Source of the DNA: Flavobacteriales bacterium
GTDB lineage: Bacteria > Bacteroidota > Bacteroidia > Flavobacteriales_C > GCA-002722245
Assembly: GCA_002722245.1 (NCBI GenBank)
Contig: PBLA01000019.1
Location: 1-64,000, forward strand
DNA length: 64,000 nt
Direction of reading: 5' to 3'
Positions 11,288-13,309 of this stretch are shown piece by piece. The notes under the pieces are model-generated. The model made no database searches. It saw only the letters and a list, made by a program, of their open reading frames with translations, and was not told the DNA's origin. Every line of letters begins with the position of its first letter. Position 1 is the stretch's first letter. A program made the position numbers and the translations under genes.

Positions 11288-11920
11288 ATGACAAACAAAT
11301 TATTTGGCGCTCACTATTTTGATTCAAAACAGTCAGATATTTTTGAATCCAACGAAGATCAGCTCTATTTTTTTAGAACATTTATAGGAAATCACAAACT
11401 TCAAATTGAGAAAGGAGACTGTGTTTATTATTTCGACGAAAAATTAAAGAATGCAATTGTTAAAAAAGGTCCCTGTGAAGTTTCAAGCTATCATTTAGCT
11501 ACTATTTTAAGAGGTTATATGCATCCAGATGCCGTAATCTCCCTTCAAGGAGTAACAACTCTCCCTTATGTTAATGGTTGCTCAACTAAACAACTTTTTT
11601 CACCTATTAGATTAGGAGATCCAACATTACAGTATTTAAAAATGCCTCCATCTAGTAGAGAACAAGAACATCATATACATTCTACATTTAGAGTTGTATT
11701 AATTCTTTCTGGGAGAGCAAAAAGTATCGTAGGTATGGATAATACAAGCATAGCAACTGAATTAAAACCAGGGAGCATATGTATTTTGGAACCTATGTGC
11801 CCTCATCATTTTGAAAGTTATCCTGAAGAAAGTTTGATAGCTATTCCTTTACATATTTTTTCCTCAGTTGGTTCATCGGAAAAAAATCATCCAATGTTTA
11901 ATGGTACAGTTTTGATATAA
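11288..11920 (+). CDS. Cupin-domain protein
   Basis: EQEHHIHSTFRVVLILSGRAKSIV...ELKPGSICILEPMCPHHFESYPEESLIAIPLHIF resembles a cupin metal-binding barrel. Confidence 0.65.
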   Translation: MTNKLFGAHYFDSKQSDIFESNEDQLYFFRTFIGNHKLQIEKGDCVYYFDEKLKNAIVKKGPCEVSSYHLATILRGYMHPDAVISLQGVTTLPYVNGCSTKQLFSPIRLGDPTLQYLKMPPSSREQEHHIHSTFRVVLILSGRAKSIVGMDNTSIATELKPGSICILEPMCPHHFESYPEESLIAIPLHIFSSVGSSEKNHPMFNGTVLI

Positions 11921-12303
11921 TGAAAGATCATCAGATAGACTCAATAATTAATAATTTTTTGAACGATTTTAACAAAATGTGCCAATCTGAAAGAAAAGAT
12001 TTTCTGGAGAGAGAGCAAACTGTTAATTACGAATATGGGTCAGAAATAAAAAAATATAAGGTAGTATATCAAGTAAGAAAAAGTAAAAATATATGGTTAA
12101 TTGAAGCCGTTAATAATGGCTTTTGGATATTTAAGAAAAGATTTCCATTATTTAAAATAACGCGAAAGAAAGATAAAATCAACCTAACTGGATTGTTCAC
12201 TCATTCCATTAAAGATTTCGAACTAAAAGATTTGGAAAACAAACTCAAACTCTATTTATCAATTTGTAAGAATCAACCGAATGATATTTTCACCAAATCT
12301 TGA
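11920..12303 (+). CDS. Hypothetical protein, translationally overlapped with both neighbours
   Basis: TAATG 1-nt overlap with the upstream stop; 23-nt overlap with the downstream ORF. Confidence 0.6.
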   Translation: MKDHQIDSIINNFLNDFNKMCQSERKDFLEREQTVNYEYGSEIKKYKVVYQVRKSKNIWLIEAVNNGFWIFKKRFPLFKITRKKDKINLTGLFTHSIKDFELKDLENKLKLYLSICKNQPNDIFTKS

Positions 12304-13309
12304 TTCCCCTCTTTACTACCTAACTAAAAAACAGCTTTTCAACCAATACAGAAGATTGGCAAACCCTATTTATTTAAAAAGTTGTCAATTTTTTGGCGCG
12401 ACGCTTATCGATCGAACAAAAACTTTAGAGTCTGGATTTGAGTTTGAAATTATTGATAAAATTCCAGTATCCACTTCGTCTTTATCTTTTGAAGAAATTT
12501 GCACAAATCGAGCAAAAGATATCGTATTTCAAAATAAGAAAGCGCTCAATATCTTATGGTCTGGAGGAATTGATTCAACAGTAGCCTTAATTTCAATACT
12601 AAAGGTATTAGATAATCAATTTGACATTTCAAGATTAAAAGTTCTACTTTCTAAGGAATCAATAAAGGAATATCCATCCTTTTATAATGATGTCATTCAA
12701 AAACATCTGAACCACACAATAATAGATGGGACTATTTATGAAAATATTTACAGTAATGATACAATTATTACCGGAGAGCATGGGGATCAATTATTTGGTA
12801 GTGATAAATTGAAATATACTGTTATTTCAAAAGATGCTTTCAGTAATTATGAAAATATATTAGATTTCGTAATTTCTAGAAAGCTTGGCACTAATAAATT
12901 TACTGATGAAATAATCAACTACCTGTCCCCTTTTGTTAAAAAATGTCCATTTAAAGTTTCTACACTTTATGATTATTTATGGTGGATAAATTTTGGATTA
13001 AAGTGGCAAACTGTTTCAATGAGAATTTTAAGTGGTATCGGAAGAAATTCATATAATCTTGAGAAGGATGTATTCCATTTTTTTAAAAGTGATGAATTTC
13101 AAATCTGGTCTATCAATAATCATTGTCGTAAAATAAAAACAGAATGGAATTCATACAAGTACATTGCTAAAGATTTAATCTACAACTTCCACAAGGATGA
13201 AGACTATTTATTGAACAAAGAGAAAGAACCCTCTTTGAAAGAGGTGATAAAAATAAGAACTAAACCATTAAAAATGGTTTGGAACAAAAATTCACACAAG
13301 AAAACCTAA
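12281..13309 (+). CDS. Asparagine-synthase-like PP-loop ATP pyrophosphatase (no glutaminase domain)
   Basis: KALNILWSGGIDSTVALISILKVL (SGGxDS PP-loop) and DTIITGEHGDQLFGSDK (AsnB-like GxxGDQLFG). Confidence 0.75.
   Translation: MIFSPNLDSPLYYLTKKQLFNQYRRLANPIYLKSCQFFGATLIDRTKTLESGFEFEIIDKIPVSTSSLSFEEICTNRAKDIVFQNKKALNILWSGGIDSTVALISILKVLDNQFDISRLKVLLSKESIKEYPSFYNDVIQKHLNHTIIDGTIYENIYSNDTIITGEHGDQLFGSDKLKYTVISKDAFSNYENILDFVISRKLGTNKFTDEIINYLSPFVKKCPFKVSTLYDYLWWINFGLKWQTVSMRILSGIGRNSYNLEKDVFHFFKSDEFQIWSINNHCRKIKTEWNSYKYIAKDLIYNFHKDEDYLLNKEKEPSLKEVIKIRTKPLKMVWNKNSHKKT

Follow-up and report, generated by a model that had tools for sequence, protein, structure and literature searches.

It is well supported that a cupin gene and a gene for a stand-alone PP-loop enzyme constitute a conserved, mobile two-enzyme module, which is spread through phage genomes and is joined by a third gene in the 64,000 nt stretch of a Flavobacteriales genome analysed here (hereafter the window). 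On the forward strand of the window, three open reading frames encode a bicupin of 210 aa (11288–11920), a small basic protein of 127 aa with no known domain, the cell-specific partner that we call X (11920–12303), and an AsnB-like PP-loop synthetase of 342 aa that lacks a glutaminase domain (12281–13309). All three were confirmed where an earlier note on this DNA had placed them, as were the overlaps that it reported: 1 nt between cupin and X, where the cupin stop codon TAA (11918–11920) forms part of a TAATG (11918–11922, forward strand), and 23 nt between X and the PP-loop gene (12281–12303, forward strand). Homologues of these genes co-occur, the cupin and PP-loop genes adjoining across phages and the whole trio recurring in bacteria, which bears out the earlier claim that the three form one unit.

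The full trio is present, in the same gene order, in three sampled Bacteroidia genomes: that of the window and two others, G597 and G672, whose proteins are 65% (cupin), 37–48% (X) and 49–53% (PP-loop) identical to those of the window. The cupin–X overlap is not conserved, being replaced by a gap of 2 nt in G597 and 86 nt in G672. The X–PP-loop overlap has a counterpart of 20 nt in both genomes, and from this arrangement X and the PP-loop gene are likely to be translationally coupled. Because the order and the 20–23 nt overlap of the second and third genes are repeated in two other genomes, the trio is beyond chance. It also appears to be self-contained, since the surroundings are unrelated in all three genomes: membrane and secreted-protein genes in the window, what we read as carotenoid-type genes in G597, and a presumably pirin-like gene near the trio in G672. 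The three loci have no precursor, transporter or additional tailoring gene in common, and the spacing between the upstream gene and the cupin is ~55–60 bp in two of them. No Rfam model matched an RNA element at the operon, and the genes flanking the window trio have no usable syntenic relatives for an empty-site comparison. The GC content of the trio tracks that of each host (27–32% in the window, 43–52% in G597 and G672), so that any transfer must be old; a recent one was rejected on this composition.

The PP-loop protein carries the SGGIDS and GEHGDQLFG motifs (residues 94–99 and 165–173) without an N-terminal glutaminase domain, as the earlier note had described. In an alignment of 46 relatives, the conserved residues are SGGIDS (94–99), E130, TGEHGDQLFGSD (164–175), WW (234–235), K241, FQxW (273–276), YK (292–293) and KxK (313–315). 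Within these, SGGxDS and E130 are invariant, D169 is nearly so and the lysines are conserved; E166, which we take to match the position of a catalytic Glu in Escherichia coli AsnB, is found in most relatives, and W234–W235, K241, Q274/W276, Y292–K293, K313 and K315 are further conserved positions. Judged from sequence, this pattern is compatible with an active adenylating enzyme. The viral members of the family share the motifs SGGIDST, SIxExP, TGExGDQlFGS, WWxNFxxKWQ, FFxxxxFQxWS, YKxxAK and KxKxxSL, and by these motifs and its full-length fold the window protein belongs among them. When its AF2 model (pLDDT 86) was searched against structures, the best PDB match was asparagine synthetase (E 2e-4, TM 0.38), followed by beta-lactam synthetase, with TsnB9 also among the matches; the AsnB-like reading given earlier is thus supported at the level of fold. 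Six viral proteins, variously unnamed, uncharacterised or labelled asparagine synthase, match the model near full length (E <1e-14, TM 0.67–0.81, 21–29% identity), with a clear gap between them and everything else.

Family assignment by sequence gave nothing specific in Pfam, NCBIfam, PHROGs, PADLOC or a PDB sequence search: the PP-loop protein has no Pfam or NCBIfam match and only a sub-threshold PHROG match. The PF00733 profile finds four other AsnB proteins in the same genome and not this one, and it matches just one of the 46 relatives (E 1e-3). The earlier note had also raised clustering with a tRNA- or cofactor-modifying family; by profiles and by structure the protein does not group with such families. 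No profile of QueC, LarE, the tRNA thiolases or DndC matches it beyond the PP-loop motif (the LarE match spans the PP-loop only, and that to phrog_1550 only residues 80–107).

The cupin consists of a degenerate N-terminal cupin barrel and a C-terminal barrel with three candidate metal-binding histidines (H129, H131 and H173/H174) that fall in invariant columns across 46 sequences. Arg135, likewise invariant in these 46, stands at the usual cupin Glu position, which by our own motif alignment we take to be the site of the Glu ligand of acireductone dioxygenase. The window protein carries all the defining motifs of the viral cupin family (Y-[IV]-N-G-C-S, R-x-G-D-P, EQxHHIHST, HHF and HPMxxGT). 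Its Pfam Cupin_2 match (E 4e-6) falls just short of the cut-off, NCBIfam and PHROGs give no match, acireductone dioxygenase is nearest in a profile search (E 4e-4), and a PDB structure search with the AF2 model (pLDDT 89) returns bicupins. The His pattern and the cupin fold are present, in the sequence and in the predicted model, and the protein may be a metal-dependent cupin enzyme.

Searches for homologues of X recovered those of G597 and G672 (E 7e-31 and 4e-34) and no others: viral contigs and phages had none, nor had 396 Bacteroidota genomes other than its own, and the PDB contains no relative. X accompanies the cupin/PP-loop pair in all three bacterial loci, and the phage versions are without it. 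The ~200-aa proteins that partner the pair in viruses were considered as X homologues and rejected by profile comparison. The three-gene grouping proposed earlier holds for the bacterial trio; what it missed is that the two enzymes are a phage gene pair and can dispense with X.

Bacterial distribution was assessed in samples of some 390–400 genomes. A single-sequence search of 98 other related genomes found no PP-loop relative, and 397 genomes of the phylum held no convincing one, the only other match (E 2e-4) being a short frame with stops. With the 46-member profile, 388 genomes of the class yielded two true relatives, those of G597 and G672 (E ~1e-94, against an AsnB background of ~1e-6). 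These two genomes are members of a single family, where the gene occurs in 2 of 13 genomes (2 of 22 with the rest of the order). A cupin profile run on 396 genomes gave only the window's own genome as a convincing match, the others being generic cupins near E 1e-4.

In viral contigs of IMG/VR, a query alignment that included the PP-loop proteins of Pseudomonas phage Cygsa01 found at least 416 candidate PP-loop relative stretches (best, 37% identical), and the cupin searched alone found 80 viral loci with up to 48% identity. The PP-loop gene accompanies the cupin in 61 of 76 new cupin-found loci, within 800 bp in 57 of these, a proportion biased upward by the origin of six of the seven cupin search seeds in PP-loop loci. 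In 31 non-redundant loci, the window included, the two genes adjoin, with the PP-loop gene ahead in 16 and the cupin ahead in 15, three of the latter being convergent. That the pair has been repeatedly reordered yet is still adjacent is strong evidence for a joint function. Of 79 loci recovered with the PP-loop query, 52 have no cupin nearby, some of them being contig ends, and the cupin is therefore not obligatory; cupin distances correlate only weakly with PP-loop distances (Mantel r 0.17, with 166 of 5000 permutations as high). The neighbouring genes are of phage type (terminase, T4-type neck and sheath genes, Gp38 adhesins, S74 chaperone), which identifies the contigs as phage, and the sites differ, the pair lying in the adhesin region or by tail adhesins, before terminase, or beside gp46/gp47. 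Among named phage isolates we found one record, Cygsa01, with two divergent PP-loop genes annotated mnmA, and no cupin of this family; no PP-loop gene was found in the plasmids searched.

The gene content around the module is varied. Seven cupin loci without an AsnB-like gene carry instead a cassette of ParB, a DUF3440/IbrA-type PP-loop protein and IbrB, in which the DUF3440 protein resembles DndC and BrxP. Such cassettes with a cupin occur, for example, at L087:7216-11046, L090:4592-7521, L095:5717-8648, L098:5257-8182 and L105:1369-4802, several directly preceding terminase, and a cupin-bearing IbrAB system is possibly undescribed. One phage contig holds four tandem PP-loop paralogues with TRAP transporter genes nearby (L047:7427-12404), another a protein in which two PP-loop domains are fused (L077:6744-8870), and in L016 and its relatives the PP-loop protein is fused to a 240-aa domain of no known kind. 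B12-binding radical SAM-like genes lie between the PP-loop and cupin genes in two contigs (L096:2923-5951, L097:3012-4547), the pair stands beside QueE-, QueD- and FolE-like genes at L192:7818-13348, and a QueD-like gene is directly upstream of the cupin at L122:2236-3406. A Paraburkholderia megaplasmid (L176:7659-9169) encodes a divergent cupin of this family beside a SAM methyltransferase, without the PP-loop gene.

In the cupin tree and the PP-loop tree alike, the three bacterial sequences group as a single clade (support 100/99 and 100/100). This clade lies inside the viral sequences in the midpoint-rooted cupin tree and is sister to a viral group in the PP-loop tree, a topology that favours one exchange between phages and bacteria. 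The root of the trees is arbitrary; that the transfer ran from phage to bacterium is our inference. Within the clade, the cupin tree joins the window with G597, and the PP-loop tree joins G597 with G672 (L188:7804-9846, L189:5066-7144); these conflicting groupings possibly reflect exchange or artefact.

We give an even chance to the reading that the trio is the bacterial version of the phage module, in which an ATP-dependent, amide-forming or adenylating PP-loop enzyme and a three-His bicupin would work on one shared substrate. The PP-loop protein would adenylate a carboxylate or an amide carbonyl with ATP, after which an amine or ammonia would attack, as happens in the synthetase portion of AsnB. 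The reactions known for cupins, as for PP-loop enzymes, are many; here the bicupin would bind or convert the substrate or product of the PP-loop reaction, as a metal-dependent isomerase, lyase or oxygenase, and it could also be a pure binding or sensing protein. Because the pair is kept in unrelated phage genomes and sites with no other constant neighbour, both enzymes probably have a single common metabolite or side chain as their target and are less likely to belong to a long pathway. For the substrate itself, a common metabolite is probable, or else a macromolecule of the host or the phage. In Bacteroidota, X probably binds the PP-loop enzyme and may serve in amine delivery, substrate handover or regulation. 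A wider proposal, to which we hold only tentatively, is that cupin and PP-loop protein make up an undescribed phage system that modifies virion protein, a metabolite or nucleic acid and can exchange one PP-loop partner for another; Bacteroidota would have captured this system and added X to it.

Some of the phage loci point to the virion itself. In 12 of 72 non-redundant loci, glycine-rich proteins, mostly Gp38-like adhesin candidates, are encoded no more than three genes away from the module, the PP-loop protein of L034 carries a fused tail fibre assembly chaperone domain (PF16778, E 1e-12), the PP-loop pair of Cygsa01, the only one in a phage isolate, comes after the genes for a long tail fibre and a Gly-rich protein, and the ~200-aa protein family is often found between or beside the two genes. 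The pair might accordingly amidate or cross-link tail fibres or adhesins during assembly, helped by tail-chaperone-like partners, with the bacterial trio a captured and repurposed copy. We consider this unlikely: many loci are elsewhere (a gp17 terminase relative occurs in the fetched flanks of 33 loci and gp46 in 19, counts that are not dereplicated), tail-fibre regions are general insertion hot spots, and no tail or adhesin gene is near the bacterial trios. Production of a modified base or cofactor, by analogy with QueC- or DndC-like PP-loop enzymes, seems rather improbable. The exchange of the AsnB-like partner for a ParB/IbrA/IbrB cassette with a DndC-/BrxP-like PP-loop protein would fit it, as would the frequent position of modules directly before terminase, the weak PHROG matches to QueC-like proteins, the QueE-, QueD- and FolE-like genes that come after the module in L192 and L196, and the QueD-like gene before the cupin in L122. 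The QueD/QueE-like genes are, however, confined to two lineages, on which ground the 7-deazaguanine pathway was rejected as a general partner; in Pfam, the QueC, ThiI and tRNA families are each matched by a single one of the 46 members, with E values no better than 1e-3; and the neighbours of the bacterial trios include no evident DNA glycosylase, transglycosylase or methyltransferase.

Stand-alone AsnB-like synthetases form amide bonds in lasso peptides and beta-lactams, and the earlier note had suggested a biosynthesis or modification module of this kind. A natural-product or RiPP-type role in the bacterium, for which X would be the carrier or precursor, would agree with the PDB matches to beta-lactam synthetase and TsnB9, and with the constant company of X, whose gene overlaps the PP-loop gene. 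The conservation of X runs along its length, which is not precursor-like, the three loci share none of the precursor, transporter or tailoring genes looked for, and the phage versions do without X, so we think such a role quite improbable. Of the suggestion itself the unit stands, and the link to lasso peptides, beta-lactams or other natural products is not supported, given no common precursor or transport gene and the ~55–60 bp upstream in two loci; the wider idea is neither shown nor refuted. The sporadic, self-contained occurrence of the trio in bacteria and the DndC-/BrxP-like partner in the cupin-linked IbrA/IbrB cassettes recall a cassette for anti-phage defence or superinfection exclusion that phages and hosts pass to one another. 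We hold this to be very improbable, as no PADLOC model matches the cupin, X or PP-loop protein, the trio has no toxin-like or nuclease part, and we noticed no defence genes near the trio in the bacteria.

The cupin/PP-loop pair was not described in the open-access literature that we searched, and it is essentially missing from phage isolates and protein family databases; Pfam, NCBIfam and PHROGs contain no family specific to the PP-loop protein. The parts of the pair come from known superfamilies. That the pair recurs in phages unrelated to one another, whether at tail, packaging or replication sites, suggests that it is probably useful in infection, and the bacterial trio offers a small, expressible version that would show what the phage enzymes make.

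Set beside known systems, the PP-loop protein is most readily compared with the C-terminal synthetase domain of AsnB (PF00733), with which it shares SGGIDS and the best PDB fold match, its TGEHGDQLFG corresponding to the SGDGGDELF of the same genome's own AsnB. Unlike AsnB, it begins its PP-loop at residue 94 with no glutaminase domain, has no PF00733 match and a TM of ~0.38, and possesses its own conserved WWxNFxxKWQ, FQxWS and NKxKxSL blocks. It resembles beta-lactam synthetase and the lasso cyclase in being a divergent synthetase of AsnB type that could form an amide with no need of glutamine, but it is without their pathway genes or precursor, and its relatives are in phage genomes with a bicupin. 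The cupin shares its metal-site motif and bicupin fold with acireductone dioxygenase and the bicupins EF2996 and ureidoglycine aminohydrolase, whereas it differs from them in the Arg in place of the Glu ligand and in identity (~10%). The IbrA/IbrB phage cassettes (DUF3440 PAPS-reductase-like plus ParB-like) provide an alternative PP-loop partner for close cupin relatives, although the PP-loop family of the trio is a different one and ParB-like proteins are not beside the window trio. Full-length structural relatives of the PP-loop protein are found in proteins of uncultured Caudovirales (for example A0A6J5LYZ2 and A0A6J5TBC6), annotated as 'asparagine synthase' or uncharacterised.
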